Assembly (NCBI RefSeq): GCF_002261225.1
Contig: NZ_NEVM01000001.1
Coordinates: 620,001-684,000, forward strand
Length of the DNA: 64,000 bases
Source of the DNA: Bordetella genomosp. 10
Lineage (GTDB): Bacteria; Pseudomonadota; Gammaproteobacteria; Burkholderiales; Burkholderiaceae_B
Reading direction: 5' to 3'
The position numbers and the translations under genes are program-made. Below, piece after piece: positions 2,451 through 39,898 of the stretch. Each line of letters starts with the position of its first letter. Within the stretch, counting starts at the first letter, position 1. The notes under the pieces were generated by a model that saw nothing but the letters and a program-made list of their open reading frames with translations, was not told the DNA's origin and ran no database searches.

Positions 2451-2833
2451 GCACACCCATCCATCATCCGGTGGCCCATTGCGGCGGCACCGACAACCCG
2501 CAGGCGGCCGCCTACGAACGGCGCTGGCTGCTGGTGCATTCCGGCGGCCAATGGCTGACGCAAGACATCTGTCCGCGCCTGGCGGAAATCGAGGTGGAAT
2601 TGCGTTTCGGCTATCTGGTGCTGCGCGCGCCGGGCATGCTGCGCATCGACATTCCGCTCGACGTCATCGAGGACGACGACAGCGTGCGCGAAGCCATCAT
2701 GGTGGGCACGCAGGCGGTGGACGTGGTGGACGAGGGCGAACTGGCGGCCGCCTGGGTCTCCAACTATGCCGGCATCCCCTGCCGGCTGATGAAAGTGCAT
2801 CCGGAGATGGGGCCGATCGACTGGCCGGCGTGA
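2447..2833 (+). CDS. MOSC N-terminal beta-barrel domain protein
   Basis: This 128-residue protein resembles the MOSC_N domain alone, without the C-terminal MOSC catalytic domain of molybdenum-cofactor sulfurases. The opening YERRWLLVHSGGQWLTQ and the closing AAWVSNYAGIPCRLMKVHP match the pattern of that barrel. No signal peptide or membrane segment is seen. The start ATG overlaps the stop of the AsmA gene (ATGA), so the two are probably translationally coupled. What a stand-alone MOSC_N protein does is not known to me; a sulfur-carrier or structural role is speculation. Confidence 0.6.
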   Translation: MSTPIHHPVAHCGGTDNPQAAAYERRWLLVHSGGQWLTQDICPRLAEIEVELRFGYLVLRAPGMLRIDIPLDVIEDDDSVREAIMVGTQAVDVVDEGELAAAWVSNYAGIPCRLMKVHPEMGPIDWPA

Positions 2834-2840
2834 TCCGGCG

Positions 2841-4106: not shown

Positions 4107-4135
4107 TCGGGCGGCGGGCGTGGCCGGGGCCTGGG

Positions 4136-5048
<913 letters not shown>

Positions 5049-5086
5049 TTATAGGTATGTCATCTCTCCGAACGGCGATTATTGAC

Positions 5087-5653
5087 CTATTTCCGCAATG
5101 CAGCAAATTGCAGCAGGTGGTAGTGCACCGCGCCGGCTTTGTCCTGACGCAATAATTCGAAATTTTCGGGCGCTTCGAGGGCGTTTTCGCTCTCAGCGTA
5201 CACCAAGGCGTTCTCGGTGAGGATGCCCGGCAGCAGGGGCCAGATGCGGGGCAGCCAATCCTGGCCGAAAGGCGGGTCCAGCATGACCAGGTCGTAGCGG
5301 GTGGCGTCCATGCGTCGCAGCGTGTCCAGGGCGTCGCCGGCGTGGATGCGGATCCGCGTGGCGCCGAGCTTGTCGCGCACCGTCCGCAGGGCGGACAGGG
5401 CGGCGCGGTCGCGCTCCACCATCTGCACGTGGGCGGCGCCGCGCGAGGCGGCTTCGAAGCCTAGCGCGCCGCTGCCGGCGAAGAGGTCCAGCACCGATTT
5501 GTCGTCGTAGCGGTTGTCCCAGAAGTGGTTCAGCCAGTTGAACAGGGTCTCGCGCACCCGGTCGGGGGTGGGGCGCAGGCCGGCGGCGTCGACGACGGCG
5601 ATGGGGGTGCGCCGGTAAAGGCCACCGACGATGCGAATATACTTGTTCACCAT
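5087..5653 (-). CDS. rsmD: 16S rRNA (guanine966-N2)-methyltransferase
   Basis: RsmD methylates G966 of 16S rRNA using S-adenosylmethionine. The 188-residue protein shows the family start IRIVGGLYRRTPI, the PTPDRVRETLFNWL motif, the SAM-binding DLFAGSGALGFEAASRGA and the catalytic DPPF (MLDPPFGQDW). The ATG at 5653 overlaps the divergent ftsY start codon (5652) by two bases, so the two start codons share CATG; a GTG three bases further in (5650) is another possible start. An in-frame extension to 5677 would lie within ftsY and is less likely. Confidence 0.93.
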   Translation of the reverse strand: MVNKYIRIVGGLYRRTPIAVVDAAGLRPTPDRVRETLFNWLNHFWDNRYDDKSVLDLFAGSGALGFEAASRGAAHVQMVERDRAALSALRTVRDKLGATRIRIHAGDALDTLRRMDATRYDLVMLDPPFGQDWLPRIWPLLPGILTENALVYAESENALEAPENFELLRQDKAGAVHYHLLQFAALRK

Positions 5654-7142
5654 GTTTGAAAAATTCAACTTCTTCAAGAAAAAAAAGCCCGCGCCGGACG
5701 TTCAGACGCCCGCCGAGCCCGTAGCCGACGCGCCGCCCGCGCAGGTCCCCGAGCAAGCCGCCCCGGTGCCTCCGGCGCCCGCGTCCGTGCCTGCTTCCTC
5801 ACAGCCTGCGCCGGTGCCGTCTGCGCCTGCTTCCACACCGCCTGCATCGGTGCCGCCCACGTCCGCGCCAGTGTCTGCACAGTCTGCACCGGTGCCACCT
5901 GCGTTTTCGCCCAGTTCTGCGCGACCTGCGGCAGCGCCGTCCGGCGCCACCCCGGCGACGGAAACTCGTAGTCCGGCCGCTGGCAGCCAGGCTGCCGCCG
6001 GCCTCCCGGCCGGAAGCGCCGCGTCACCGCCTGCTCCGGCATCGGTCGCCGCGGAGCCCGTGACGGCATCGGCCGTCCAGACGCCTAGCGCCGCATACGT
6101 AGCGCCGGCCTCGGGGCAGCCAGCCCCGCCCATGGCCCCGGTCACGCCGCCCGCCGCGCCGCCGGTCACGCCGTCCACCGTAGCTCAGCCCGAGCCGTCG
6201 CCTGCCGCCCCTGCCGAGGCGGCGCCCGCCAAGACCTCCTGGCTGAACCGCCTGAAGAAAGGCCTTGCGCGTACCGGCCAGAGCATAGGCGGCCTGTTCG
6301 TCGGCGTGAAGGTCGACGAAAACCTGTTCGAGGAACTGGAATCGGCGCTCATTATGGCCGATGCCGGCCTGGAGGCGACCGAGAAGCTGCTCACCGCGTT
6401 GCGCGCCCGCGTCAAGAAAGACCGCATCGAGGACCCCGCCAAGGTGCGCGACGCCTTGCGTGAATTGCTGGCCGATCACCTGCGTCCGCTGGAGCGCCGC
6501 TTCGACGTCACCCGCGCCAAGCCGCTGGTGGTGATGATCGCCGGCGTCAACGGCGCCGGCAAGACCACGTCCATCGGCAAGCTGGCCTATACCTTCCAGC
6601 AGCAGGGCGCCAGCGTGCTGCTGGCCGCCGGCGATACCTTCCGCGCCGCCGCGCGCGAGCAACTGATGCAATGGGGCGCCCGCAACAACGTGACCGTCAT
6701 CGCGCAGGAGGGCGGCGATCCGGCCGCCGTGGCCTTCGACGCCGTCAATGCCGGCCGCGCCCGCGGCGCCTCGGTGGTCATGGTCGACACCGCCGGCCGC
6801 CTGCCGACGCAACTGCATCTGATGGAAGAGCTGAAGAAAATCCGCCGCGTGATCGGCAAGGCCGACGCCAACGCGCCGCACGAGGTGCTGCTGGTGATCG
6901 ACGGCAACACCGGCCAGAACGCGCTGGCGCAGATCCGCGCCTTCGACGCCGCCATCAACCTTACCGGCCTGGTGGTCACCAAGCTGGACGGCACCGCCAA
7001 GGGCGGCACGCTGGCCGCCGTGGCCGCGGGCAGCCAGGGCGTGCGCCCGGTGCCGGTCTACTGGATCGGCGTGGGCGAAGGCCTGGAAGACCTCCAGCCC
7101 TTCGTCGCCGACGAATTCGCCGGCGCGCTGTTGGCGGGATAA
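5652..7142 (+). CDS. ftsY: Signal recognition particle receptor FtsY
   Basis: FtsY is the membrane-associated SRP receptor GTPase that docks ribosome-SRP complexes at the translocon. The 496-residue protein starts [12 protein letters not shown], a basic amphipathic lipid-binding start. Residues about 15-185 are a low-complexity Ala/Pro/Ser/Val linker (the A domain). The NG domain follows: [13 protein letters not shown] start, [16 protein letters not shown]-loop near residue 298, then [21 protein letters not shown] and [10 protein letters not shown]. Start was chosen at 5652 because the seven extra upstream residues overlap the rsmD start and the family begins MF/MFGF. Confidence 0.95.
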
Positions 7143-7233
7143 CTCGCGGAAGGGGGCCGGACCGCGGAATGGTCCGGCCGCCGGCCGGATTCGGATATCC
7201 ATCTCGATATCCATTCCGGCGCCGGTATGCCGC

Positions 7234-8982
7234 CTATTTCCAGAATTCCTTCGCGTGTCCGAATTGCTTGAACGCGCGTTCGGCCTTGGCCACCAGTTCT
7301 TCCTGACGCGCGCTGATCCAGCCCAGCGCGAACCACGCCTGCGGATACTGCACGCTCCATTGGCGATAAAGATCGTGCGCCACGGACAGGTCGTTCATTT
7401 CCCCCAGCACGTCCTGCACGGCGGCCAGGCGGATCTTGTAGTCGCGCACCTTGGCGGCCGGCAGCAGCGACTCCGTGAAATTCAACCCGTAGCGCAGCCG
7501 CTTGGCCCGCTTGCGCAAGGCATGGCGGCTGGGGATGTCCAGCGCCGCGAAGTGCCGGCCCTCGTGCAGGACGCGGCGATGCCATTTACGCAGGCGCGCG
7601 GCCAGCAGGTCGTGCAGCGTGGGCGGCGTTTCCTGTTCCGGCGGCACCAGCGGAATGATGGACGGGACGATCTGCGGCGCGTGGGTGCTGTCCCAGTCGA
7701 CCGGGGCCGGTACGGCGCCGGCGGCCTCGGCGGCGCGCAGGGCTTGCGCGGCGGCATCCTCGCCGGTCAGGCCCAGCGTGGTTGCCGCTTCGTCGCCCGC
7801 CGTCACGCCGTTGGCCGCAATGGCGTCGGACGACGGGGAGGCGGCGCCGGCCAGCCCGCTGGCCGGTCCGGTGGCGGCGGCCGGCACGTCCAGGCTCCAT
7901 TCCAGCATGTCCAGCAGCCAGCCCTGGAATTCCGGGCTGGCGGCGATCTCGCGCGAAGGCGCGGAAGGCGGCGGCGCTTCCATCGGGAAGGTCGGCATGC
8001 CGGCGCGGACCAGGGCGGGGATGATGCTCTCCTGCAATACGTCCTGGTCGCGATTGGCGCCGAAGGCGGCGAAGAAGGTCCGTATGCCTTCCTGCAGCGG
8101 CGCCGGCGGCAGCCCCGCCCAGCCGTCGTACAGGCGCCAGGCCGAGCGCAGCCGGCGCATGCCCACGCGCAACTGGTGCACGTGTTCGGGGTTGCCGGCC
8201 TTGCGGATGCCGTCGGTGTCGACTTCGGCCAGGACGGCCGCGTTGCGGATGATCTGGTCCAGGCACTCGGCCGCGACCGCCCCCAGCGCCTGGGCTGGCG
8301 ACATGGCCGGGTCCAGGCGCACGTTGCGCGCGCCGGTGCTGGTCCAGAATTCATCGATGGCGGCGGCGCGGGCCTCGTCGTCCTGCAAGCCGTCCAGGGT
8401 GTGGGCCAGGCGCGCCAGGCGGTCGCCGCGCTCGGATTTGCTGCGCGCGTCCATCACCAGCCCGTGGCGGCGCAGCCAGGCGCGAGCCGCGGTGAACAGC
8501 GCGGCGGGCTTGCCCGACATCAGCTCGAACTCGATCTCGCTGATCGGTAGTTCCAGCGCGCCGGCGCGCAGTAAGCCGCGGTCGTAGGCGATTTCCACCG
8601 TGCCCTGGCGGTTGCGCACCTTGCGGATCAGGCGCGTGACGTCCGTCTCGTAGCGCAGGCCCAGCTCGCCCTTCAGGCCGGCCAGGGTGGCTTCCACCTC
8701 CGTGCCGGCATAGACCGAAAGGTCGAGGATGGGGCCGGGCCGGGGGTGATTGAGCTCGATGCGGGTAATCGCGTTGTTACCCGGCGTCTTCAGCGTCTGC
8801 ACCCAGACATTGCCTTCGCGGCGCAGGCGTATCGCCACCCGGGCGCGGGCCAGCTCGCGGTCCGGCGTGTCGAAATACATCGCATGCAGGCGAATGCGGC
8901 TGGCGTCGCGCTGTTTGACTTCCTGCTCCAGGGCCTTGCGCGCGGCGGCGGGCACGTGAAGTTTCAATTCCTGTTCCGACAT
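7234..8982 (-). CDS. CYTH and CHAD domain protein
   Basis: This 582-residue protein joins an N-terminal CYTH triphosphate tunnel domain to a C-terminal CHAD domain. The CYTH signature ExExK is seen as EQELKLHV at the start, followed by YFDTPDRELARARVAIRLRREG. CHAD domains bind inorganic polyphosphate; here the basic HVHQLRVGMRRLRSAWRLY and the second half SRHALRKRAKRLRYGLNF, both rich in His/Arg/Lys, are visible. An Ala/Pro-rich spacer of about 100 residues splits the CHAD region. CYTH-CHAD fusions are thought to act in polyphosphate or triphosphate metabolism. The ATG at 8982 fits the family start; the reading frame upstream runs through a repeat. Confidence 0.85.
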   Translation of the reverse strand: MSEQELKLHVPAAARKALEQEVKQRDASRIRLHAMYFDTPDRELARARVAIRLRREGNVWVQTLKTPGNNAITRIELNHPRPGPILDLSVYAGTEVEATLAGLKGELGLRYETDVTRLIRKVRNRQGTVEIAYDRGLLRAGALELPISEIEFELMSGKPAALFTAARAWLRRHGLVMDARSKSERGDRLARLAHTLDGLQDDEARAAAIDEFWTSTGARNVRLDPAMSPAQALGAVAAECLDQIIRNAAVLAEVDTDGIRKAGNPEHVHQLRVGMRRLRSAWRLYDGWAGLPPAPLQEGIRTFFAAFGANRDQDVLQESIIPALVRAGMPTFPMEAPPPSAPSREIAASPEFQGWLLDMLEWSLDVPAAATGPASGLAGAASPSSDAIAANGVTAGDEAATTLGLTGEDAAAQALRAAEAAGAVPAPVDWDSTHAPQIVPSIIPLVPPEQETPPTLHDLLAARLRKWHRRVLHEGRHFAALDIPSRHALRKRAKRLRYGLNFTESLLPAAKVRDYKIRLAAVQDVLGEMNDLSVAHDLYRQWSVQYPQAWFALGWISARQEELVAKAERAFKQFGHAKEFWK

Positions 8983-9009
8983 GACGCTCCGGGAAACGAT
9001 AAAAAAAGC

Positions 9010-26341: not shown

Positions 26342-26703
26342 TTACAAAATTGGGGGAGGTGTTGACGGAGGTGGCGGATTGTTGTCGATGTTCACGGCCG
26401 ATGAAATTTGTCCACCTAGCGTGAAATTTTCGAACTGCCCCCTGATCGACGGTTTCGCCTGTAGGCAAGAAGGGGACAAATTCGATTCCTCTTGCTGCAA
26501 TCTTCTGCCACCGAATGGCTTCCGCCGGTTGAACAAAACGGGTGATCGGTAGATATCCGTTCGGGATGTGGGCCTTAACACGCACCGAAAAACTTCACGG
26601 CCTGCCGCCCCCGGTTCTCTAAGATTGGGGTGACGGGCAACCAGGATTAAAAGCTGCCGTAGAGTTCGGGAGCGACCGCCTGCGGCTAGAAAGCACTGGA
26701 GGC
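26342..26703. mobile_element. Island left edge with IS21-like end remnant
   Basis: This 360-base stretch holds no convincing gene. At 26408-26428 is TTGTCCACCTAGCGTGAAATT, which is the inverted counterpart of 29082-29102 (one mismatch over 21 bases), and resembles the repeated end sequences of IS21-family insertion sequences. Base composition falls here relative to the groS side, which marks the left edge of the accessory island. No transposase gene remains. Confidence 0.45.
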
Positions 26704-27291: not shown

Positions 27292-27807
27292 ATGAAGCAC
27301 ATATACAAAATCACTTATCTAAATGGAAAGATCTACGTCGGGATGGATCTCACGGGTAGCCTGAGCTACTTCGGCTCGATCAACGAAGCGCTTCTGCGCA
27401 GCGACTTTACCCGAGGGGAAATGCTCGATTTCACCATCAGGAAACAAATCCTGTGGGAGTCTTCGACGGCTACTGATGCTGAGGTTCGGAGGCAAGAAGT
27501 GGAGATTATCCGTACCCTTGGCGCCAACGACCCGAGCGTCGGCTACAACCGTTGGGCGAAATTCGGGGAGCTAACCGGGGCCGGTGTCGAAGTTTACGGT
27601 AGCTGGAATTCTGGTCAGGAAAGTGGACCTAGCCGGAGCCGGCCGCGCCGGTCGGGACCGTCTAAGGATATCTCGTCCGTCCGCTTTCGACTCTGGGCGG
27701 TCTTACCGACGTTGTGGCCATTCGGATGCCCGCTATCCTCTAGAAGAGTTGGATCGACATACGCGCCGCATGCCTGGATTGCAGTGTCGGCAGATGTCTA
27801 TCAATGA
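27292..27807 (+). CDS. GIY-YIG nuclease-like protein, C-terminus probably altered
   Basis: The 171-residue frame begins MKHIYKITYLNGKIYVGMDL, the GIY-YIG nuclease core signature (Y-x-I, then Y-V-G), and continues to a plausible domain end at ...EIIRTLGANDPSVGYNRWAKFG (split). The family is found in homing and repair endonucleases. After about residue 100 the sequence becomes Ser/Arg/Gly-rich and overlaps the convergent gene by 68 bases, so the natural stop has probably been lost by rearrangement. Substrate and role are unknown. Confidence 0.5.
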   Translation: MKHIYKITYLNGKIYVGMDLTGSLSYFGSINEALLRSDFTRGEMLDFTIRKQILWESSTATDAEVRRQEVEIIRTLGANDPSVGYNRWAKFGELTGAGVEVYGSWNSGQESGPSRSRPRRSGPSKDISSVRFRLWAVLPTLWPFGCPLSSRRVGSTYAPHAWIAVSADVYQ

Positions 27808-28729
27808 ATGTATTCAAGCCATCGTGCGCATCTTGAGACCAAGTATCGTTGAAGATGCTGGTGTCCAAGGTGGCCTTGAACTTGTCGAGGTCAACTAAGG
27901 ACAAAGATCGCAAGAACTCCGTCACATCAGCTAGCGCATGGCTAGTGACGTCCGGTATCGGCCAATGATCGTAGAAGCTCGTGCCGAAACGCACTGCGCA
28001 GACTTTGATTTCGCCGCTTCGGTACTCCGAGATCGACGAGACGAGCCCTCCGCTGCCGTTGGGCCAACTGAATTGCGTCTCTTGCAGGCTCAGCTGCCAG
28101 ATGTGCTCGTCCACAGCCTGACCTATTAGAAGGAGCGTCCAGCCATGGCCTTCCGCTGCCATACCCACAATTGTTCCCGTATCGATGTGGCGTTCCAATT
28201 CTTGCCAAAGGGCGCCTTTTGCGCAGAGTAGAGCAGCTTCAAGTGCTGCGCGTGATGCACGATCCGCAGCTTGTTGGCGAATTACTCGTGCCTCCCTCCG
28301 CTCATTTTTCTCCGCCTTGTTTTGTGCCCGTCTGGCAATGAGTTCAAATGTTGGAGCGGTCAGTTCCTTTACCTGTGTATTCAGTGCCTCACCGGTAATG
28401 CGGATATATGAAAAGATGTCCTCGATGTGCGCCAAAAATAAGTCGATACGCCATCGGCAATCGCTGCGCATCCACTCTGTGGCACCGTCAAGCACGCCTG
28501 CGTCGGCAGCGACCTCGGCTGCTGAGAGCCGCCATTTATCGAATATGCGTAGGAGAATTCGTTCCAGGAGTACCGCCACCTTGGCGCTCTGTACTTCAAG
28601 CCCGGCTGAGTTAGTCCAGTCAATGTCGTCCAGACCGAAGCGGCGCGCCCGTTGAATGATGTCATTGGCCTTTCCAATCTTGAAGCGTCGGCCGTTGCGA
28701 TGAGCAAGCAAATAGACGTGTGATTTCAT
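27740..28729 (-). CDS. GIY-YIG (T5orf172/MUG113-like) domain protein
   Basis: A 329-residue protein starting MKSHVYLLAHRNGRRFKIGKANDIIQRAR (split), a pattern of the T5orf172/MUG113 branch of GIY-YIG domains found in phage and mobile-element genes. A charged helical region follows (residues about 130-165, KAEKNERREARVIRQQAADR), then an uncharacterised C-terminal half. It is convergent with another GIY-YIG gene. Both lie between IS21-like end remnants. The role is unknown; nuclease activity in element mobility or defence is an inference. Confidence 0.55.
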   Translation of the reverse strand: MKSHVYLLAHRNGRRFKIGKANDIIQRARRFGLDDIDWTNSAGLEVQSAKVAVLLERILLRIFDKWRLSAAEVAADAGVLDGATEWMRSDCRWRIDLFLAHIEDIFSYIRITGEALNTQVKELTAPTFELIARRAQNKAEKNERREARVIRQQAADRASRAALEAALLCAKGALWQELERHIDTGTIVGMAAEGHGWTLLLIGQAVDEHIWQLSLQETQFSWPNGSGGLVSSISEYRSGEIKVCAVRFGTSFYDHWPIPDVTSHALADVTEFLRSLSLVDLDKFKATLDTSIFNDTWSQDAHDGLNTFIDRHLPTLQSRHAARMSIQLF

Positions 28730-29374
28730 TTTCAGTGGTGTTCATCAAGCCCGCACCTTGCTTGTAACAAGGCAGCTAATATTCGTGAGTCAGCTATTCT
28801 GCTGGCCATACGAGATGCCGAAGTCTTGCCCCCCATCTATGATGAAAATTTTGTCTGGTCTCCTGGGAAAAATCGACAGCATAGTTACTTTTTGGACGTT
28901 AGTCTTCAACTTCCGGTTTGGGTGAGGCCTGACGATCACCGTTATGGCTTCTAGGGTCAGCAGCCAGCCTGAAGCAGTCGGCCAAGGGGGTGTTGCGACA
29001 GGCAGTTCCTGGCCGATGTCGGTCACCGCCAAGCCATTGAGGTTGTATCACTGAGCCGGCGGAATGGGTCAAAAAAGGAAAAATTCCACGCTAGGTGGAC
29101 AAGAAGCGGGAAAGTTCTACCTTAGCTGGACAAAAAATTCCATCTTGTTTGAACAATTCCAACCTGACCATTGATTTTGCGAAACTCACGATTCCATCGT
29201 GTGTGAACTTCGACAGGGGGGATGTGGGAGGTCAGAGAGCTGGGATTCCTCTCCGCGAGTTTGGAACTCTAGGCGCCCCCGGGGGTACCAGCTGAGTCTA
29301 ATTGAAAGGGATGCTAACGTTAGAGGTAAGCGATCTGCCCAAGGCTCGTCCGCTTGACCCAAAAGTTAGACCGC
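28730..29374. mobile_element. IS21-like end repeats in a gene-free stretch
   Basis: This 645-base stretch has no convincing gene; an 80-codon frame at 28790-29032 shows no family resemblance. From about 29082 to 29210 there are several degenerate copies of a motif near GGACAAxAAxTTCCA, spaced by some 30 bases, including AATTCCACGCTAGGTGGACAA at 29082-29102. Multiple short repeats at each end are typical of IS21-family elements. The copy at 26408-26428 faces the opposite way, so the two bracket a 2.7-kb segment with three genes. Confidence 0.45.
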
Positions 29375-29989
29375 TCAAGCCGATGGCCAAACATTCGAGA
29401 AGTCCATTTTTACCCTGATTTGATTCTCGAAATCCATAATGCTTCTGGCACACTCGACTTTTCCCCACCAACGGTCAACAACATAGCCGTTAATTGGGTC
29501 GCGATAATAGTAGCTATTGCTTCCGATTCTTTGATCTGAATTCACCGGGGCTAGCACACACGGCAAGCCAAGTGCATAGATGGCACTTTCTGGAAAGGTC
29601 ATCGCTCGGTGTTCGATATCGATCATGAAGTTTTGAATGCCATTTGCTACCTTTATCGTTATGCCATATCCATCCGGCAGTTGATTGCCATGTGCGTAAT
29701 TGCAGCGGAATTTTTCGTAGACGATATTCTCGAACTTCATGCCAATCCTTCCATTTTTGTTCTTGAAGGGGAATAATGTATCTTTAAGGTTGAGGCCTCC
29801 ATGCATGAGTTCGATGATATCGAGATATTCGACAATAAACTTTCTGAACCTATCCCCTACGGGCTTAATCTTCGGGTACATCTTCTTTGCCGTGCCGTCG
29901 ATGGCTAGGCACGCAAAGAGCATTGCCTTATCTAGGTCTCCGCTATCACATGCATCTAACGAGTATTTAATATGATCAGCAATTTTCAT
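29375..29989 (-). CDS. Hypothetical protein with HEPN-like RxxxxH motif
   Basis: A 204-residue AT-rich gene I do not recognise. The first 100 residues look helical (DHIKYSLDACDSGDLDKAML, CLAIDGTAKKMY) and end at EKFRCNYAHGN, whose R95-x4-H100 matches the Rx4-6H motif of HEPN RNases in toxin-antitoxin and abortive-infection systems. The C-terminal half has aromatic and beta-type segments (IGSNSYYYRDPINGYVVDRWW, split). No antitoxin gene (such as MNT) is adjacent, so this may be a lone effector or unrelated. HEPN membership needs a profile search. Confidence 0.4.
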   Translation of the reverse strand: MKIADHIKYSLDACDSGDLDKAMLFACLAIDGTAKKMYPKIKPVGDRFRKFIVEYLDIIELMHGGLNLKDTLFPFKNKNGRIGMKFENIVYEKFRCNYAHGNQLPDGYGITIKVANGIQNFMIDIEHRAMTFPESAIYALGLPCVLAPVNSDQRIGSNSYYYRDPINGYVVDRWWGKVECARSIMDFENQIRVKMDFSNVWPSA

Positions 29990-30560: not shown

Positions 30561-32693
30561 TTAGCGCTCGCTCACGATCCTACCGTGTTCGAGATGGAGG
30601 ACTCGGTCCGCACTAAGAATAGTTTCGGGGCGATGCGCGATGATGATTCGTGTCATCTTAAGAGAACCGACGGCCGTATTTACGTTGCGTTCGCAGGCGA
30701 TGTCCAGGTGGCTAGTTGCTTCATCAAGAAGCAGGCAGCTGGGCTTCTTATAAAGCGCCCGCGCCAATAGCACGCGTTGTTTTTGTCCGCCGGATAGCAC
30801 GCTACCCATATCTCCGGTCAGCGTGTCGTAACGCATCGGGAGGGCCTCGATTTCATCGTGGATACAGGCCATCTTCGCGCAGGCCACTACCCAGTCCGGA
30901 TCAGCTTCAGGATCGAAAAAGCTAATATTCTCGAATAGCGAACCAGCAAAGAGCATGTCGTCCTGCATCACGGTCCCAAACACCTGACGCCGCGTCCTAG
31001 AGTCTGTTTGTTGGGTGGCCGAATTCCTTACGACGATGGAACCCGTGCTTGGCATAAGAATACCGAGCAACAAGTTTGCCAACGTTGATTTGCCGCTACC
31101 CGAGACGCCAGTGATGGCCACTGATTCTCCCGGCTGAATCGTGAAGCTCACATCGTTGAGTACAAGCGGTTCGAAGTCGCCATAGCGAAAGCTTAGATTC
31201 GAAACTATCAATTGGATAGCGCCTGCGTCGTCCGCAATTGAGCCGACATGCTGTGGATTCTCCAGATATTCCGTTCCCATCAGTGCAATATCTGAGAGTC
31301 GCTCCGCCTGCACCACCAGCATGCGATAGTCGACAGTCTTGTCGATTAACGCAAACATGCGGGTCTGAAACAGTACTTTGTACGCGAGGAAGGCTATCAA
31401 CGTCCCCAATGTGAGCTCGCCAGCGATAACGAAATGCGAGCCTAACCATACGACAACAATATTTTCGAAACTAGAAAAAAATCCGTTTGAATGCTTATGG
31501 AAGAAAGTTAGCCGTTGGACGCGAATATTCGCATTGATTTGATCGGTCAACAATGGGAGCCACGCTCCTCGACGGCCATCCTCTTTGGAGAATAGCTTGA
31601 TAGCTCTTATGCCGCGCAGCGTTTCAACGAAGTGACTTTGTTGTTTTGCTTCATGGACCAAATGCGCCTGCATGGCAGCACGCAGAGGTTTAAACCAGAT
31701 CGTACGAATTGTCGCATAGGCCCCTGATGCCAAGAGAACCACGCTGGCAAGGATTGGGTTATAGAGAAATAATAGTGCAAGGGCCAAAAGCGTCATGACG
31801 CCATCTAATGCACCTTCCAGAAAAGAGGTGGTAATGGTGCGCTGAATGTCATCGATGGCGCCGAACTTCGAAAGTAAATCTCCTAGATGGCGCTTGTTGA
31901 AAAAGTCGACCGGCAGACGGATAAGGTGAGAAAAAATATTGGCGCGCCAGCGCAAATTCCATACGGCACCCACATGCATCAGCAACCACGATCGTAAAAA
32001 AGCAGTTGTGTGCTCACATATGGCCAGTACCAAGAAGGCGGTGGCCAGCAGATTCATTAATTCAACGTCGGCCGAAATAAGAACGTGATCAATAGTCCAC
32101 TGAACATAGAATGGTGCAGCAAGGACAAAGATTTCAAGCACCACCGAGAAAACGAAAGTTTGCAAAAAAGCGCCGCGTAGACCTTCGAGTGAACCGATTA
32201 GATGAAATAGCGGAATTGTCTGCTGTTCGTCTTTTTTTTCAAACTCGGTAGCTGGCCAGAGTTCTAACGCTACTCCCGTGAATTTTTGTGAAATCTCCGC
32301 CATTGAGATTTTCCGATAACCGCGAGCGGGGTCATGAATATATACTGCGCCAGATTTAACGCGCTCGAGTACTACGAAATGATTGAATTCCCAATGCAGA
32401 ATACACGGCGTTCGCAGATTTCTTAGGGAATCGAGTTTCAATTTAACCGCTCGGCTGACCAGCTGCATACGAGAGGCGATCTGAACGAGTCCGGTAAAGT
32501 TTGTGCCCTTTTGAGAGATGAAAAAACGCCTGCGTAGTTCCGGCAGTCCTACGCGGTGTTCATAATATCCCGCGATCATGGCCAGACAGGCCAAACCGCA
32601 TTCAGCAGCCTCTGTCTGAAGTACAGTCGGTATGCGGCGCTCCCTGTGAAAAGAAAATGTTGTTTGCGCTGTTTCTTTTTGGCCGTGTGTCAC
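30561..32693 (-). CDS. C39-peptidase ABC exporter of the RiPP cluster
   Basis: A 710-residue peptidase-containing ABC transporter that should cut the precursor leader after its Gly-Ala site and export the core. The N-terminal C39 peptidase has the catalytic Cys in QTEAAECGLACL, the His in HWEFNHFVVLERV and the Asp in IHDPARGY. A six-helix membrane domain follows, then an ATPase with GVSGSGKST (Walker A), LSGGQKQR (signature) and LLLDEATSHLD (Walker B). I chose GTG at 32693, which overlaps the HlyD stop (GTGA); an ATG at 32732 would extend into the HlyD gene. Order and type match the exporter of XyeA-type clusters. Confidence 0.92.
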   Translation of the reverse strand: MTHGQKETAQTTFSFHRERRIPTVLQTEAAECGLACLAMIAGYYEHRVGLPELRRRFFISQKGTNFTGLVQIASRMQLVSRAVKLKLDSLRNLRTPCILHWEFNHFVVLERVKSGAVYIHDPARGYRKISMAEISQKFTGVALELWPATEFEKKDEQQTIPLFHLIGSLEGLRGAFLQTFVFSVVLEIFVLAAPFYVQWTIDHVLISADVELMNLLATAFLVLAICEHTTAFLRSWLLMHVGAVWNLRWRANIFSHLIRLPVDFFNKRHLGDLLSKFGAIDDIQRTITTSFLEGALDGVMTLLALALLFLYNPILASVVLLASGAYATIRTIWFKPLRAAMQAHLVHEAKQQSHFVETLRGIRAIKLFSKEDGRRGAWLPLLTDQINANIRVQRLTFFHKHSNGFFSSFENIVVVWLGSHFVIAGELTLGTLIAFLAYKVLFQTRMFALIDKTVDYRMLVVQAERLSDIALMGTEYLENPQHVGSIADDAGAIQLIVSNLSFRYGDFEPLVLNDVSFTIQPGESVAITGVSGSGKSTLANLLLGILMPSTGSIVVRNSATQQTDSRTRRQVFGTVMQDDMLFAGSLFENISFFDPEADPDWVVACAKMACIHDEIEALPMRYDTLTGDMGSVLSGGQKQRVLLARALYKKPSCLLLDEATSHLDIACERNVNTAVGSLKMTRIIIAHRPETILSADRVLHLEHGRIVSER

Positions 32694-33940
32694 AGCTTTT
32701 CTCTTAATCGATAAAGTGGTACAAACGCCCATTCGAAAAGGCGTCGAGTCTCTAGTGGCAAACTTGCATCTAGTAGCATGCCCGCGCGCAGGCGTTGTCC
32801 CTTGCCACGCAAATCATCGAGGAATTGACGCTCTAAATTAATCTTGACTAGATATACCGGGTTCCTGTTGTTTTGGTGATAGGGTGCTATATCTGCGATT
32901 TCTTCATGCAGCGTCGAGATTTCGGCAATGGAGAGAATGTTCCCGCGTTGTAAGCCGTATTTTTGATACGGGAATACGCGATAGCGTAACTTCACCGGCA
33001 GGCCTGGCTTTAGATGACCTACAGCGTGACTTTGCACATAAAGATGAGCTTCCAGCGGCTGATCATTTGAAATTATGGACATGAGAGGTTTGGTGGGGCT
33101 CACGCGCTGGCCGATATGAGCCACAACAGCCGTTGCCGAACCGTCGGCAGGGGCGATCACAGAAAACTCGCGAGCGGCGTCGTTTTCAGTTAGTTGTTGA
33201 GATATTTCGGCTAGTTTTCCTCTAAGCTGCGAACGTTCCTGCTGATGCTTATGCGGCATCCCCGCCAACGTTTCTGCGGTGTCCTCCTTCACCCGAATGG
33301 CGGTGAGGTGATCGCGTTCAAGAGCATATAGTCGACTCTGTTTCTCGTGGAAATCGGCTTGGACTTTGTCCGCCAGTTCTTTTGAGACTGCACCTAGTGG
33401 CTCGAGTCGACGATACCGGCTGGTGCTATCGCGTGCCAGCATCACGAGTTTTCGCTGCTCATCGATTAGTTCGCCATATTTGGCGATTTCCCGGGACTGA
33501 TTTTCCAACCGCTGCTTCCATCGCCTCAGTTCAATCTCTTGCAATTTCTCCACGACTGAAAGATTCTTTGCAAGCAACTGCTGTCGCACGGAAAGGTGTT
33601 TATTGATGGCTACCATGGTTGGATTGCCACTGCCATCCCATTGCTCTCCTGACACTACGTAGAGGACGGCACCCGTTTTGACCTCTTGGTCGTCTGCTAC
33701 GTGTTTAGCTGTGATAACCCCACGGAAGGGTGAAAACACTTTGACAATGCCATCTCTTGGGACTAGCTGTCCGGCCACTGACGTGTACCTCGTATAGCTT
33801 CCTATCACAAAGATTGCTATCAGCACGCTGGCGGCTACCGCTGATAATGCGGCTATGGTCTTCAGAGATGGCGGTTGGGCAATAATGGTCTCGCTCGTAT
33901 GTCTAGCACGGCTCGCCTCTATAGCTGCTTTTCGGAACAT
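32690..33940 (-). CDS. HlyD-family membrane fusion protein
   Basis: A 416-residue periplasmic adaptor that should link the C39 ABC exporter to an outer-membrane channel such as TolC. One membrane helix lies at about residues 27-49 (LKTIAALSAVAASVLIAIFV). A lipoyl-like half (VFSPFRGVITAKHVADDQEV), a long coiled coil (about residues 105-240) and the matching half APADGSATAVVAHIGQRV follow, with the beta-barrel region after. The stop overlaps the exporter start. No TolC-type gene is in the island, so a host channel is presumably used. Confidence 0.9.
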   Translation of the reverse strand: MFRKAAIEASRARHTSETIIAQPPSLKTIAALSAVAASVLIAIFVIGSYTRYTSVAGQLVPRDGIVKVFSPFRGVITAKHVADDQEVKTGAVLYVVSGEQWDGSGNPTMVAINKHLSVRQQLLAKNLSVVEKLQEIELRRWKQRLENQSREIAKYGELIDEQRKLVMLARDSTSRYRRLEPLGAVSKELADKVQADFHEKQSRLYALERDHLTAIRVKEDTAETLAGMPHKHQQERSQLRGKLAEISQQLTENDAAREFSVIAPADGSATAVVAHIGQRVSPTKPLMSIISNDQPLEAHLYVQSHAVGHLKPGLPVKLRYRVFPYQKYGLQRGNILSIAEISTLHEEIADIAPYHQNNRNPVYLVKINLERQFLDDLRGKGQRLRAGMLLDASLPLETRRLFEWAFVPLYRLREKL

Positions 33941-33954
33941 GACTGTTCGACGTG

Positions 33955-34872
33955 TCAGTCTGCGCGAATTTCATTTTCATTGTGCAGGCGTTGGGCGGTT
34001 CCTTGTCGGCTCAGAAGATTAAAATCGTGGTGTGTTCCGTCGTAGTAGATGATGTTGTTTTTCAGGATATCCATACCGATGTAGCCCAAGTTATCGACTA
34101 CTTCTTCGTTTTTTGTATGTCTGGGAATTACTGGTAGCGATTTGAGAATCTGTCCGTTAATTTTCAAATCAACAAGTCTCATGTGCTCGTTTCTTGGCAG
34201 CTCTGCTTTGAATATATCCATAATTTTTGGACTTTCTTTTCCTTTGGGTTTTGACGCTAGTAGCGAAGCTTGAATAAAGGTAAAGGGAGCACCGGAGTCG
34301 ACCAACATGGGAATCATACGGTTGTCGAGTTCGACCGAAGTTGCGATGACGTAGTAGGGATTCGGGATGGTAGTTCCCCGTCGTATGTTGAGGTCGTTGA
34401 CAGTTCCTATATCGAACGGCGGGCTGGTAAAAAAGCAATTCTCTTCGAAGTCCACAACGACAGCATTAGGCCCTGCGATAGCTTGTGGACTCAATATTCC
34501 AGAATAGCCATCTTCAGAAAGAGCCGATTCGGTGAGAAGGTAGAAGTCCTGCCGAATAGCATTTCCATGATAGTCCGCCAGGGTTGCCTTCACCTTTCGT
34601 GCATTGCCTGAACCGACAATGGCATGCTGTCTCTCGATCGTCGCGCTGGGATTCTCGTCGAGCAGGAATTCATCCCATAGGCTGTGCGAGTTGGAGCCTG
34701 TATCCAGCATCATCTTGGCGGGTCTACCATTGACTAGAATATGGACTGTCGGATTCGCTTTGCTCTGCATGTCGTCGTATTGAATTGAGCTTTGGAATTG
34801 CACGGGATTGCTAGTCAGAGTGGTAGCGCAACCCACTGCTTTCGCTTTTGCCAAGACTGGAATAAAAAGCAT
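33955..34872 (-). CDS. Two-lobed aspartic protease of the RiPP cluster, start probably frameshifted
   Basis: A 305-residue aspartic protease with two catalytic motifs, MLDTGSNSHSLW (first lobe) and LVDSGAPFTF (second lobe), each in a retropepsin-like fold. It may trim the exported peptide after leader removal. The annotated ATG at 34872 falls inside the hydrophobic part of a signal peptide (MLFIPVLAKAKAVGC). A better start, ATG at 34910, encodes MTASRTLFF but is one base out of frame because of a T7 tract (34885-34891); with eight T the sequence would read MTASRTLFFLSLTMLFIPVL then AKAKA. Such clan AA proteases occur in Xye-type clusters. Confidence 0.82.
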   Translation of the reverse strand: MLFIPVLAKAKAVGCATTLTSNPVQFQSSIQYDDMQSKANPTVHILVNGRPAKMMLDTGSNSHSLWDEFLLDENPSATIERQHAIVGSGNARKVKATLADYHGNAIRQDFYLLTESALSEDGYSGILSPQAIAGPNAVVVDFEENCFFTSPPFDIGTVNDLNIRRGTTIPNPYYVIATSVELDNRMIPMLVDSGAPFTFIQASLLASKPKGKESPKIMDIFKAELPRNEHMRLVDLKINGQILKSLPVIPRHTKNEEVVDNLGYIGMDILKNNIIYYDGTHHDFNLLSRQGTAQRLHNENEIRAD

Positions 34873-34884
34873 AGTTAAAGAAAG

Positions 34885-34891
34885 AAAAAAA
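34885..34891 (-). other. T7 homopolymer breaking the protease signal peptide
   Basis: On the minus strand seven T follow ATG ACA GCA TCC AGA ACT C. One added T would join the ATG at 34910 to the protease frame and give a standard signal peptide. Length change here could act as an on/off switch, could be a true inactivating slip, or could be a sequencing error. Confidence 0.7.
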
Positions 34892-34915
34892 GAGTTCTGG
34901 ATGCTGTCATGACAA

Positions 34916-36097
34916 TTAAAGCGAATCAGAAGAATGGAGGTTCTTGGAAATTTCGTGGAGCGGAACCCCTCGCTTGGCGAGGTATGCGGCGCTCTTTAAA
35001 TACATTGCCTTCAGTGCCTCACAATAAATCGAGGGCTGATCAGCGTTACCATTCTTCATGCGATGGAGAGGGGTTTCGTCACGTGTAACGTGCCCACATA
35101 CATTGAGCCAAGTGCATCGGGCGCATGAAGACGGGATGCTTCGTGGTGCACATATGCTGGAGACCATACTGTGCCAAGCTAGAAATTCTGGAAAAGTGGC
35201 GCTTTTGACATTCATGCCGGAGTTAAAGATTTCCGGCGCGGCGTTTCGCAATGTGTCGTCATGCCCAATGTCGCCACCACTCGATACAGTGAAAACTACT
35301 GTGTCGCTCGTCGAAGCTATTAACCGGTCTTTTGACGCCTTCTCTTTTTTTTGGAGAATTCCCTGCAGCGTCAGATCAATAATATTTATTCGATTTTTTT
35401 TGTTTTCGTCTCTTTCCCAGCACTCGAAGAGATCGCCTACAAACTTTACAAAGCGTGCTGTATCCGTCGGGCTCGCAGAGTCATGTGTTTCGTCGGGAAA
35501 GAGGAATTGCATGCGAGAGAAGCCTAACTCCTTAGTCAGGCACATATAAGTGGTGCTCGCATTGGACTCAGGGCTGACCACGCAAAGCGAACCGAAGCTA
35601 GGTATACGTCCTTCGGAAAATGCCTGCTTCACTGCAGCAATCTTTGGCACCATGCTGTCGAACGTTCCGCGGCCGCGGTGGTCAATCCGATTCGCGTCAT
35701 GCTGTGCTTTGGATCCGTCGATACTGATCCCTACGGAAATCTGGTGGCGCGAGAACACTTCAAGCCAAGCTTCGTTTATCAAAACGGCATTGGTTTGCAC
35801 GGTGAATCGAACCTGCTTTGCGTCATGCAGTCCGGTTTTTATTATCGATACGATTTCCGCGAACCGCTTCGGTCCTAGAAGCAAAGGCTCTCCACCATGC
35901 ATATCTAGTTGGAAAGCCGTTTCCGAGATTTTCTGAGGCAGCGTTCTCAGAAATTTCACAAGGCTCTGGACGGTTTCCGCTGAAATGAGCGGAGGGTGAT
36001 TTTCAAAGTCCTTGTTTCCCTTGTTGAAGAAGTAACAGTACTTGCAGTTTAAATTGCATCTCTCGGCAACCTTTAGAATGATCTCGATGTGGCGCAT
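34916..36097 (-). CDS. XyeB-like radical SAM/SPASM peptide maturase
   Basis: A 393-residue radical SAM enzyme predicted to join an aromatic ring carbon to the beta-carbon of a residue two places on, making three-residue cyclophanes in the precursor. It binds the SAM cluster through C14, C18 and C21 (CNLNCKYCYFF), with the family-like lead-in IEIILKVAER. LDMHGGEPLL and VQTNAVLIN fit the SAM-binding core. The C-terminus has Cys-rich SPASM/twitch-type segments (CAPRSIPSSCARCTWLNVCG and IYCEAL). A strong GGAGGA precedes the ATG. It is 79 bases downstream of the precursor gene. Confidence 0.92.
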   Translation of the reverse strand: MRHIEIILKVAERCNLNCKYCYFFNKGNKDFENHPPLISAETVQSLVKFLRTLPQKISETAFQLDMHGGEPLLLGPKRFAEIVSIIKTGLHDAKQVRFTVQTNAVLINEAWLEVFSRHQISVGISIDGSKAQHDANRIDHRGRGTFDSMVPKIAAVKQAFSEGRIPSFGSLCVVSPESNASTTYMCLTKELGFSRMQFLFPDETHDSASPTDTARFVKFVGDLFECWERDENKKNRINIIDLTLQGILQKKEKASKDRLIASTSDTVVFTVSSGGDIGHDDTLRNAAPEIFNSGMNVKSATFPEFLAWHSMVSSICAPRSIPSSCARCTWLNVCGHVTRDETPLHRMKNGNADQPSIYCEALKAMYLKSAAYLAKRGVPLHEISKNLHSSDSL

Positions 36098-36176
36098 CGT
36101 TAACGTCCTCCGTGGAAGGTCCCCGAGGGCCTGTTAGAGCCGTCGGAGACGTTGCAAGGAACTGTTCGTATAACAA

Positions 36177-36341
36177 CTAGAAGGCCTTGCTCCAGATTCT
36201 GTTAAAAGGTGTAGGGGGAACCTGCGGCGCTGCACCTACGATCTGATCAAGCTCAGATTGTGGGATATCTTCGATGAGCTTGTTCTCGGTGGCTTCACGT
36301 TGAGCGCGCTCCAAGTGCCGAATAATGTCATGGGTAGTCAT
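36177..36341 (-). CDS. XyeA-like RiPP precursor peptide (54 residues)
   Basis: A short gene immediately before the maturase. The leader starts MTTHDIIRHLERAQREATEN, is charged and helical, and ends IPQSELDQIVGA, a double-glycine-type (here Gly-Ala) C39 site. The predicted core is APQVPPTPFNRIWSKAF, 17 residues to the stop. FNR and WSK are aromatic-x-basic triplets, the substrate pattern of three-residue cyclophane maturases, and the W-S-K-x-F end matches darobactin A (WNWSKSF). GGGAAAGAGAGA upstream gives a ribosome-binding site. The assignment rests on motif, size, position and the four genes behind it. Confidence 0.85.
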   Translation of the reverse strand: MTTHDIIRHLERAQREATENKLIEDIPQSELDQIVGAAPQVPPTPFNRIWSKAF

Positions 36342-36829
36342 TTTTCAATCTCTCTTTCCCGCGTTGAAGGATCGGATCCGCGGCGGCGGGTCGCTGAGGT
36401 CCGGAGACGGTGATTGATTGCTTGTTGCAGATGAGGTGTTCTTGGCGAACACACGCTTCTAGCTTTTCGAGTTCTTCCGCTTCAGAAGAAGCTCAACGGC
36501 AGGACCCAACGCCACTACGAGGTGGAAGGATAGATTTGGAGGTCGATTTGGAACGCTGCTGTTTCGCTTCAGTGGTACATCTATTGGGAAGGGTTCCGAT
36601 GTAACTCCCTTCCTTTAGCGAGTGCTTGTGGAGGCCAAATTGGTCTGAATTCGGCTTGCGGCGCACGATCTTGCGTGCAGTTAATGCAAGCTGCGCGGTC
36701 GTTAGGTGGTAAGCGACTACCCAGTACCGCCTTTACTGTTTGACTGGTGATGTCCTGTGTGCACCAGCCGGCCATCGCAGGTGTGACGAGCACCGCGTAT
36801 GCTCAGGCGGCGGGCGAGCCGATAGAATG
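36342..36829. other. Upstream region of RiPP cluster, possible IS66 left end
   Basis: About 490 bases without a gene. It must include the RiPP operon promoter, but I see no clear -35/-10 pair. At 36709-36731 GTAAGCGACTACCCAGTACC resembles an IS66-family inverted-repeat end (such ends often start GTAAGCG) and faces the transposase relic that follows. Confidence 0.35.
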
Positions 36830-37490
36830 GCCACCATGCAATCAATCGTCCTCACCTCCACCCGACGACATCGATGTGAAGGCCCCGTTGCCAAGCAGCT
36901 CAAAGAGGTGCGGGCGTTGCGTGAGGAACGTTCCGCCTGACATGAGGAGTGCGAAGCACTGCAACAGTCCAGGCATGATGATAAGAACGAGATCGCGTTG
37001 GAACTTGAACTCGAAGAGCTCAGGGTCAATCAGGGCGAGTGGGCAGCCGTCACCGAACGGTCTGCATGCAAGCCCTCGTCTGCGCCGATTCGTTGCCCCT
37101 TGCCGCCGTATCTGCCGCGTGCGGTCATCGAACCCCGTCCGCACGCCCCGTTCTGCCTGGATTGTGGTAGTCAGTGGTGGTGCTTGGGCTGTAGAGTACG
37201 TGCCAGCCAGCTTCAAGGTCATCCAGCACGTCCGCCCGTGCTTTATCTGCATGTGCTGCGACTGCATGATTCAGCAAGTACGCAAGACCATACCTTTTTG
37301 CATCGGCAGCCTGCCATCTACGCTCGCGAAGGCGTCGAACTCAGCGACAGCACAATGGCCAACTGGGCCGGCGTGCACCATCAACTGCTCTTGCCCTTGG
37401 TGGCACGGCTGCGCGATCATGCCTTCGCGGCTAGGGAGCTGCGCACGGCACACGCCGGTCTTCAGCATGCTCCTGCTGCATGTGCTCCGT
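36830..37490 (+). mobile_element. IS66-family transposase (TnpC) relic
   Basis: Fragments of an IS66-type TnpC appear in order but in different frames: ALELELEELRVNQGE, then PYLPRAVIEPRPHAPFCLDCG, then EYVPASFKVIQHVRP, then IYAREGVELSDSTMANWAG. In intact TnpC these form one chain (E-Y-V-P-A-x-F-x-V-I-x-H-V-R-P; Y-x-R-E-G-V-E-L-x-x-S-T-x-A-x-W). Frameshifts near 37165 and 37285 break it and the catalytic C-terminal part is missing. It abuts the truncated Ltp-like gene. Confidence 0.8.
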
Positions 37491-37770
37491 GGGTTGTCTG
37501 GCTTTTGGTGTATTTGTTGCCAGCGCTCGACGACAGTCGCTCAATGAGTCCCTTACATGAAAAGCCCATCATATCGAGATACTGCCTCGCGGATCTTTCT
37601 GCCTGTTTGTTCCAATCCACATAGAGACTATCGACAGCAACTGTCGCATCTGACAGCTTATAACCATCCCCTGTAGCCGAAGATGGCTGCTCAATCAGCC
37701 CATCGCGTGAGAAACCTTGGATGCTCAGATATAGATTACGGAAGCGCTGAGGCGACAGGGTGGCTCCCAA
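37490..37770 (-). pseudogene. Truncated Ltp-type (PF07553) surface lipoprotein fragment
   Basis: Two Ltp repeats are seen: FSRDGLIEQPSSATGDGYKL followed by SDATVAVDSLYVDWNKQAER and then SARQYLDMMGFSCKGLIERL. The F-S-x-x-G-L-I-x-Q-L and A-x-x-A-V-D-x-x-x-V-D-W-N motifs define the family, which includes phage superinfection-immunity lipoproteins. The frame runs into the IS66 relic after YTKSQ, and no signal peptide or lipobox remains at the N-terminus, so both ends are broken. Confidence 0.65.
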
Positions 37771-38599: not shown

Positions 38600-39181
38600 A
38601 GCTAACGCCTAAATTAATAGTAACCTATTAAAACTAAATATGTAAATTGGAATCAACGAGATTTTGTTTGTGTGTGATAGACCGACGCGCTCCGGATTTA
38701 GCACGAAGCAGGTTTAGAGTCCGGAATTAAAATCTCTTCTTGTCCGCCACCCTTGGTGAGTTGCTGAGACGGCCGGCGCAAGCGCCATATACTGGGCGGG
38801 ATTGCCACCTTGGTTGGTGATACGCGACGAGAGGGACGCCTTGCCCAGAAGCGGGAAGCCTTGCGAGACGTGCCTGCCCGATCTGCGAGTGCAGGTCAGG
38901 CGTAGGTACGGCGTGAACTGGAACACCTACGAATACCAAGCCAGAAGAACGGGATTTACCTACGACACCGAGTGTTGTCCTCATGGAGGATGATGGGGAG
39001 GGCGCCGAAATAGTGAGCAGGCTTTCGTACCATACAGGGGGAAATTGAACGGCAAGCTTTTATTGTTAATGGTTCTTTTGTCTATGAGATAGTACTTTTA
39101 AAACCTTAAGGCATTCGCCCGAATGCTCTCAATATTGAATGAATATCGTCGAGTTCGAAAGACTTGTCTAGAAGACGAAGA
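38600..39181. other. AT-rich gap with an unassigned relic
   Basis: About 580 bases before the immunity gene. Short frames on both strands between 38714 and 38993 (63-85 codons) resemble no family I know and overlap each other, so none is called. The base composition around 38740-38960 is G/C-richer than its flanks, which may mark an inserted fragment of core DNA. Confidence 0.35.
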
Positions 39182-39898
39182 ATGATCATTACGTGCAAAT
39201 TCAGAGACCCCACGCTCGCTTCGGAAGACTTTCCCGAGATGCTGCGTCGAATGTACTGCGTTACCTCCTCGCTCGCGGAAAAGTCGGAAGGGTTGAACCA
39301 CTGGTTCGCACAAGGAAACTCTCTTGAAGAGGCGCATCTATATCCAGCTTTTGAAGGTGGCGAACCATCAACAGCACTACTTGCTGTGCTGAATCATAAG
39401 TATCGGAACGACAAATCCTTCACGTTCATCTCGATATGGAATGGGGCTGCCGAGCAACGTGACGGAGTTTCGCTTGCGTTGTACGTGAATGACAGGGGCC
39501 AACCTTGCACTTTGACTATTTCGAATCATAAGCGGAGAGCCAATAGGTTTGGCGGCGCAGATGCTGTTAAAGATATAGTCGCTGCATTGGTAAGGCTGTT
39601 TCAACCTTTGTTTGTATCTGTCTCGCCTCGCTATTACGCTCAAAAGCAAGTTTTCGACGACAAACCTGGCGTGGGTTGGATGCTGTACCTCCCGCAGGTA
39701 ATCACGGCAGAACAGGTTCCGGAAGCCCAAGCTTTAATTCCTCTGCCCGTTGGCGGAAAGAAGCAGACCGGTACTATCATCGTCAGCGTGGCGGACGAAG
39801 TGTTTTCGCTGGACAATCCCCGCCATGTCGAGTTGGCGAACCAGATTGAGATTCGCCTGGTGGACCAGGACTTGTTGCCGCGCTACGCGGACCTCTAG
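39182..39898 (+). CDS. Imm52-like immunity protein
   Basis: A 238-residue cytoplasmic protein resembling the Imm52 family of polymorphic-toxin immunity proteins: MIITCKFRDPTLASEDFPEML near the start (split), LNHWFAQGNSLEEAHLYPAF, then a segment with FTFISIWNG and a long C-terminal half. The ATG at 39182 fits, with AGAAGACGAAG upstream; a start at 39164 adds six basic residues. No toxin gene is present beside it, so it is probably an orphan immunity gene, kept for protection against toxins of related strains. Confidence 0.5.
   Translation: MIITCKFRDPTLASEDFPEMLRRMYCVTSSLAEKSEGLNHWFAQGNSLEEAHLYPAFEGGEPSTALLAVLNHKYRNDKSFTFISIWNGAAEQRDGVSLALYVNDRGQPCTLTISNHKRRANRFGGADAVKDIVAALVRLFQPLFVSVSPRYYAQKQVFDDKPGVGWMLYLPQVITAEQVPEAQALIPLPVGGKKQTGTIIVSVADEVFSLDNPRHVELANQIEIRLVDQDLLPRYADL

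Follow-up and report, generated by a model that had tools for sequence, protein, structure and literature searches.

The BamA-inhibiting peptides in the sources cited here are gammaproteobacterial, darobactin and dynobactin being from Photorhabdus and the xenorceptides from Xenorhabdus. We take the xenorceptides to be products of Xnc/Xye clusters, and it is mainly with such clusters that we compare here a five-gene locus of Bordetella genomosp. 10, which lies in a 64,000-nucleotide stretch of contig NZ_NEVM01000001.1 (this whole stretch is called the window below). Darobactin A, with the sequence WNWSKSF, is described as a mimic of the beta-signal at strand 1 of BamA (PMC13067283), its W3 and K5 are reported to be joined by a carbon-carbon bond (PMC8183687), and its maturation is attributed to host hydrolases, with no dedicated protease (PMC9055067). 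According to a 2026 review, xenorceptide A2 enters the BamA gate and forms a further strand between strands 1 and 16 (PMC12971899), while an editorial gives the BAM machinery as the site of action of xenorceptides (PMC13310878) and a further source refers to 'a xenorceptide from Xenorhabdus' (PMC9484694). The rings described for the enzyme XncB are formed between residues i and i+2 and are of the types Trp-Arg, Trp-Asn and Phe-Asn (PMC11002830).

We consider it somewhat probable that the Bordetella locus is a Xye-like cluster that makes and exports an antibacterial peptide with two rings, one on the motif FNR and one on the motif WSK, and that the WSKAF end of this peptide likely binds BamA, the insertase for outer-membrane proteins, of rival Gram-negative bacteria. 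The gene order, the protein families, the core motifs and the resemblance of the C-terminal end can all be read from the sequence. The locus occupies positions 30561-36341 on the minus strand, where five open reading frames (ORFs) run head to tail in the order precursor, radical S-adenosylmethionine (SAM)/SPASM maturase, aspartic protease, HlyD adaptor and C39-ABC exporter, as follows.

36177-36341, minus strand: precursor peptide of 54 residues; an ORF with an 81% identical relative (P0077), GAAAGAGAGA upstream and no match to the XyeA model.
36180-36230, minus strand: predicted core, the 17 residues that follow Gly-Ala, which contains the motifs FNR and WSK and ends in Phe; proposed from the sequence, an alignment with XyeA and comparison with DarA of Vibrio crassostreae, with a predicted cleavage site.
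34916-36097, minus strand: radical SAM/SPASM maturase of 393 residues, XyeB-like and predicted to form cyclophanes (TIGR04496 258.7 bits, cut-off 450; invariant cysteines; trees).
34875-34910, minus strand: short out-of-frame reading frame seen in the sequence, from ATG to TAA, 12 codons including the stop, in the gap between maturase and protease and over a seven-T run.
33955-34872, minus strand: aspartic protease of 305 residues with DTGS and DSGA motifs, a hydrophobic N-terminus and an unsure start codon (PF13975, PF13650; same place as the PF13650 gene of Xenorhabdus bovienii).
32690-33940, minus strand: HlyD-type periplasmic adaptor of 416 residues (PF13437 above cut-off; TIGR01843 88.3 of 208.65 bits).
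30561-32693, minus strand: C39-peptidase ABC exporter with a likely GTG start at 32693 (PF03412 128.4 bits, PF00664, PF00005; GTGA overlap).

Four of the five proteins carry Pfam matches above cut-off, namely Radical_SAM in the maturase, the aspartic-protease models in the protease, HlyD_3 in the adaptor, and Peptidase_C39, ABC_membrane and ABC_tran in the exporter. A first-pass annotation of this DNA had placed five genes in this order on one strand at this position, and both the ORFs and the Pfam matches agree with it. It had also drawn attention to the low guanine-plus-cytosine (GC) content around the cluster, which our counts over 2-kb windows bear out, with values of 0.48-0.52 over 28-37 kb against 0.66-0.73 at 1-25 kb and 0.60-0.68 at 41-64 kb. 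This low GC marks the island as different from its host and supports a foreign origin.

The same gene order was said at first pass to be common to known XyeA/XyeB clusters, and it recurs in the annotated xye cluster on the X. bovienii plasmid NZ_FO818638, which reads xyeA, xyeB, a hypothetical protein, HlyD and C39-ABC. The hypothetical protein of that cluster matches PF13650 at 31.5 bits (cut-off 24.3), so that the order precursor, radical SAM enzyme, aspartic protease, HlyD, C39-ABC is a feature of both loci, as are a W-x-[K/R]-A-hydrophobic C-terminus of the precursor and XyeB as the best family of the maturase. Identity to the X. bovienii counterparts is 33.8% for the maturase, 36.5% for the exporter and 20% for HlyD, while the protease and the precursor can be aligned only weakly (expectation values (E) 0.011 and 0.18, respectively). 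A global alignment of the two proteases gives 21% identity and pairs DTGS with DTGS, with DSGA of the window protein opposite DTAA of X. bovienii. The locus differs from the Xye clusters in that its maturase, 34% identical, stays below the XyeB cut-off and its precursor lies outside the XyeA model, and in that its core has a proline-rich N-terminal arm and ends in Phe where XyeA has Ile.

Precursor and predicted core

The leader of the precursor ends in ELDQIVGA and is followed by the predicted core APQVPPTPFNRIWSKAF. A Gly-Ala leader end suits cleavage by a C39 peptidase. The core ends in FNR-I-WSKAF, so that FNR and WSK both fall within the last nine residues, in accordance with the aromatic-X-X pattern of triceptides/3-CyFE peptides; among the 1067 frames of the window this two-motif C-terminal pattern occurs in just two, the other being at about 15.6 kb, antisense to a 439-aa ORF. 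The computed [M+H]+ of the core is 1956.049 in the linear form and 1952.018 with two rings, a difference of -4 Da. Both the precursor, with GAAAGAGAGA, and the maturase, with GGAGG, are preceded by ribosome-binding-like sites. Promoter-like sites (5 against 5.9 expected) and terminator-like sites (8 against 6.8) show no meaningful excess over shuffled sequences, and a scan of 24-42 kb with Rfam gave no matches.

A profile built from three precursors retrieves, at E up to 1, six proteins, of which one is P0077 and five are XyeA (three of them named Xenorhabdus) with the cores WVNVFARWDKAI or WINVFARWNRAI. The alignment of the window precursor with XyeA shows F-x-R, W-x-K and the penultimate Ala in common, X. 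bovienii having FAR-WDK-A-I and the window FNR-I-WSK-A-F. A lanthipeptide precursor was also considered, since Pfam gives a sub-threshold lantibiotic match as its only hit (PF04604, 15.5 of 21.7 bits; the NCBIfam model NF040664 reaches 12.8 of 46), and it was rejected because the precursor has no cysteine and the five genes include no lanthipeptide enzyme. A tblastn search of plasmids with the precursor returned 7 records at E 5-7, which we take as chance. In viral contigs the DNA pattern for FNRxWSKAF-stop had one match, which we also regard as chance: phage-like ORFs are listed there over 600-9000, and no such small gene is among them.

The end of the core resembles darobactin, a resemblance that the first-pass annotation overlooked. 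The core terminus is ...PPTPFNRIWSKAF and that of V. crassostreae DarA, encoded in a plasmid-borne cluster annotated for darobactin, is ...PPITAWNWSKSF, with no follower, so that both have the last five residues WSK[A/S]F, a free C-terminal Phe and, as predicted for the window peptide, a Trp-Lys carbon-carbon ring on the same residues. Agreement with WSKAF over these five residues is 5/5 in P0077, 4/5 in V. crassostreae DarA (WSKSF), 3/5 in X. bovienii XyeA (WDKAI) and 2/5 in X. japonica XyeA (WNRAI). Among 9217 frames of at least 30 residues from 50 sequences, a WSKxF end occurs in two, the window precursor and V. crassostreae DarA, and the looser end W-x-[KR]-x-[FIWLY] in eight, X. bovienii XyeA included; this control shows only the rarity of the end, since the DarA and XyeA loci had been included deliberately. 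The locus as a whole differs from the daropeptides: the DarE model is not reached (98.9 of 650 bits), the maturase takes a separate branch in our trees, and a C39 exporter and an aspartic protease stand where darobactin has DarBCD.

The likeness of the ends bears on a different explanation, namely that the product is a genuine two-ring triceptide with another target or role, such as another envelope protein, a metal or signalling, and that WSKAF is common to both systems only because the maturase needs W-x-K near the C-terminus. Triceptide maturases do serve precursors with very different ends, as in YhhA and HaaA, and the window maturase is far from DarE by the score just given. Yet the W-x-K-x-hydrophobic end is common to XyeA and DarA, darobactin and the xenorceptides are both reported as BamA inhibitors, and a C-terminal Phe would presumably be unnecessary for a Trp-Lys ring. 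We regard another target as rather unlikely, and as the most probable of the alternative explanations. BamA remains our best guess for the target because the gene system and the peptide end nearest to those of this locus both belong to reported BamA inhibitors.

Maturase family and relatives

The family comparison suggested at first pass puts XyeB (TIGR04496) first of 72 NCBIfam families for the maturase, followed by YhhB at 226.4 and FxsB at 175.0 bits, and all three are named as cyclophane-forming. Lower scores are those of the sulfatase maturase (157.1), DynA (124.5) and DarE (98.9 bits). The XyeB model gives 558.8 bits with X. bovienii XyeB as a positive control. XyeB is also the best family, at 237.4-333.6 bits and always below cut-off, for six of the seven relatives of the maturase that were scanned (P0010, P0012, P0013, P0016, P0020 and P0022), the seventh being a Vibrio protein, P0047, with YhhB as its best family. 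The CxxxCxxC motif and four C-terminal cysteines are invariant across 24 sequences. YhhB, FxsB and HaaB are cyclophane-forming radical SAM/SPASM enzymes of the same superfamily, but they form a separate clade (support 100/99) and have other precursors and partners.

A protein search with the maturase gave 76 proteins, one of which is the window's own. Proteins P0002-P0012 are 55-70% identical to it and include those of Bordetella bronchialis (P0010, 65%) and Bordetella sp. 15P40C-2 (P0012, 55%), while five named Pandoraea proteins (P0013-P0016 and P0019) are 50-53% identical; these Bordetella and Pandoraea relatives are annotated 'radical SAM protein', and with them the system extends beyond this genome. 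Two trees were made. The quick tree has 80 rows, consisting of the window sequence, 67 of the 75 relatives (those of 360-430 residues, 8 being dropped by length) and 12 references; the careful tree has 50 rows, with the window sequence, 38 of the 75 relatives (long and redundant branches dropped by choice) and 11 references, the Paracoccus row being left out. The references include sulfatase maturases, DarE, YhhB, FxsB, HaaB and one XyeB. The careful tree places the window maturase in a clade of 13 rows (100/100), where the six members that carry a name come from Bordetella or Pandoraea. XyeB belongs to the larger group of 31 rows that encloses this clade (93/88, not starred); YhhB, FxsB and HaaB form the opposite group of 14 rows, and the branches of DarE and the sulfatase maturases lie outside. 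A clade made up solely of the 13 rows and X. bovienii XyeB was rejected (p value of the approximately unbiased test, p-AU, 0.024), the comparison having one long-branch XyeB reference and a group that was defined once the quick tree was known. Since the 13-row clade sits in the XyeB-holding group and exclusive sisterhood is rejected, the maturase reads as a Xye-like lineage beside XyeB and not as a gene recently copied from Xenorhabdus.

The first-pass annotation had expected the maturase to keep apart from sactipeptide and non-RiPP enzymes (RiPP, ribosomally synthesized and post-translationally modified peptide), and this held against the sulfatase maturases, DarE, YhhB, FxsB and HaaB of the trees, which contain no sactipeptide enzyme. 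Its broader claim of a Xye-type identity stands in part: the gene order, the triceptide-type maturase and the rank of XyeB speak for it, while the XyeB cut-off is missed and XyeA does not match. Another radical SAM chemistry, for example an oxidation like that of sulfatase maturases, with the rings never made, is to our judgement very improbable. The score of the anaerobic sulfatase maturase model speaks for it, as does the fact that ChlB and sulfatase maturases head the five sequences that match the maturase in PDB; but the three best families form cyclophanes, the trees group the maturase with XyeB, and no thioether is possible because the precursor has no cysteine.

More distant searches gave scattered matches. 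A single-query search of genome contigs found one Bacteroidales locus at 21% identity; searching that genome for the XyeB family yielded four matches, all below cut-off, and since 7 of 14 control genomes likewise match below cut-off, XyeB family E-values alone are not diagnostic. Viral contigs searched with the maturase alignment contain 29 distant loci (22-38% identity over partial query), phages 37 records, all below 60% identity (10 listed), and plasmids 291 records, also all below 60%, with X. bovienii best among the 40 listed. On a plasmid of Pseudoalteromonas sp. NC201 (6671-9734 of L007) a XyeB-like maturase follows a 79-aa Gly-Gly peptide, and the position of the protease is held by a 524-aa ORF with HEVFH, perhaps a metallopeptidase, for which Pfam gives no match up to E 0.01. 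On a plasmid of Paracoccus denitrificans (4381-8224 of L008) a XyeB-like maturase follows a C39-ABC exporter (PF03412 113.3 bits) and a small Gly-Gly ORF, in an order that differs from xye.

Processing genes and genomic surroundings

The protease matches both PF13975 and PF13650 above cut-off, each over two stretches. Its start is doubtful, because the ATG at 34910, just past the maturase stop, belongs to a different frame from the protease body and stops after 11 codons, a run of seven T lies at 34891-34885 between this ATG and the in-frame ATG at 34872, and the latter has no visible ribosome-binding site. Possible causes are a slip in the assembly, phase variation, decay or just a later start. 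For the exporter, the start at 32732 given at first pass should probably be replaced by GTG 32693, which appears more likely and forms a GTGA overlap with the HlyD stop. The whole cluster, searched as DNA against plasmids, gave 33 records, none covering 80%, and the 10 listed all lie within C39-type exporter genes.

Just upstream of the precursor, 36747-37547 on the plus strand has a sub-threshold match to the IS66 transposase zinc finger (20.1 of 27.3 bits) and is a possible insertion-sequence relic. A piece of an Ltp lipoprotein gene follows at 37451-37770 on the minus strand (PF07553, 72.1 bits over two stretches), with 69-72% DNA identity to Ltp genes on Serratia, Erwinia and Pantoea plasmids. 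An ORF for an Imm52-type immunity protein lies at 39164-39898 on the plus strand (PF15579 53.3 bits; PADLOC PDC-M17B 64.3 bits), and adjoining it, at about 38893-38956, are 64 bases that match (81.3%) part of a Robbsia gene for restriction-endonuclease-fold toxin 5, possibly the relic of a toxin-immunity pair. On the other side, a pair of 23-base inverted repeats (26408-26430 and 29080-29102, 96% complementary, 2649 bases apart) lies just inside the low-GC stretch beside groES-groEL and may represent old insertion ends. For two low-GC ORFs on the minus strand, 27740-28729 and 29375-29989, searches of Pfam (up to E 0.1) and PADLOC (up to E 0.01) gave no match. A search of plasmids with groEL gave no Burkholderiales among the 15 matches listed. 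The mobile-element relics invoked at first pass are borne out weakly by the IS66-like match and the inverted repeats; the right-flank plasmid search gave 10 records in all, with no transposase among them. The right-flank remnants fit an island that gathers conflict genes and have no bearing on the peptide.

Such surroundings raise the question of whether the cluster is itself decaying or silent within an island of remnants. The out-of-frame ATG after the maturase and the seven-T run would suit this explanation, and so would the remnants at 36.7-39.0 kb (Ltp, IS66-like and toxin gene). The four remaining genes are nevertheless long open frames with intact Pfam domains or core motifs, the precursor and the maturase have good ribosome-binding sites, darobactin is reported to mature without a dedicated protease (PMC9055067), and the internal ATG at 34872 may serve. 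We therefore consider a decayed cluster improbable.

Proposed action and significance

In the antibacterial scheme that we favour, the leader would recruit the maturase, which would link Phe with Arg and Trp with Lys (i to i+2) and so remove four hydrogens; the C39 domain would cut after Gly-Ala, and the ABC-HlyD pump would export the 17-residue core. The aspartic protease, with its hydrophobic N-terminus, would act in the periplasm and perhaps trim the proline-rich arm APQVPPTP. The rigid end with its free C-terminal Phe would then mimic the beta-signal of outer-membrane proteins and, at the lateral gate of BamA, add to strand 1, and with this gate plugged outer-membrane assembly in competitors would likely be blocked.

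Several points weigh against this scheme. The target is carried over from relatives, and a five-residue stretch with 4/5 agreement is a short match. Phe-Arg and Trp-Lys are not among the XncB rings described in PMC11002830, so that such rings made by a Xye enzyme would be an extension drawn from the motifs. WVN, the motif of the first ring in XyeA, is missing from the core, which has a spacer residue between FNR and WSK that XyeA does not have; nor does the core contain the W-x-W of darobactin, having a single Trp with no aromatic residue at i+2, which leaves no such ether ring. The precursor has no match to the XyeA model (TIGR04495) at E up to 1, while X. bovienii XyeA as positive control reaches 69.3 bits (cut-off 33), and the maturase scores 258.7 bits against the XyeB cut-off of 450. 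The protein search gave a single close relative of the precursor, P0077, 81% identical and on a contig of 3061 bases. A frameshift may affect the start of the protease gene, and the protease fold rests on Pfam, since single-sequence folding gave a mean pLDDT (predicted local distance difference test) of 31.2. Neither bamA nor a known immunity gene was found among the five genes by NCBIfam or Pfam.

It is possible, although we hold this more tentatively than the scheme itself, that the peptide represents a betaproteobacterial BamA inhibitor in which a Xye-type line has reached the Trp-Lys ring and C-terminal Phe of darobactin, with a Phe-Arg ring replacing the ether ring. Among the titles listed by our literature searches none concerns a Bordetella or Pandoraea triceptide, and a prior listing in the triceptide mining studies of Nguyen 2020 and Sugiyama 2022 is possible. 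If the proposal is true, distinct radical SAM lineages would converge on one five-residue warhead, and the W-S-K-x-F end would become testable as a convergent BamA-binding element, with the exact peptide and its masses defined. A whole Burkholderiales lineage, Bordetella and Pandoraea, would then make such antibiotics and would constitute a separate reservoir of BamA inhibitors.

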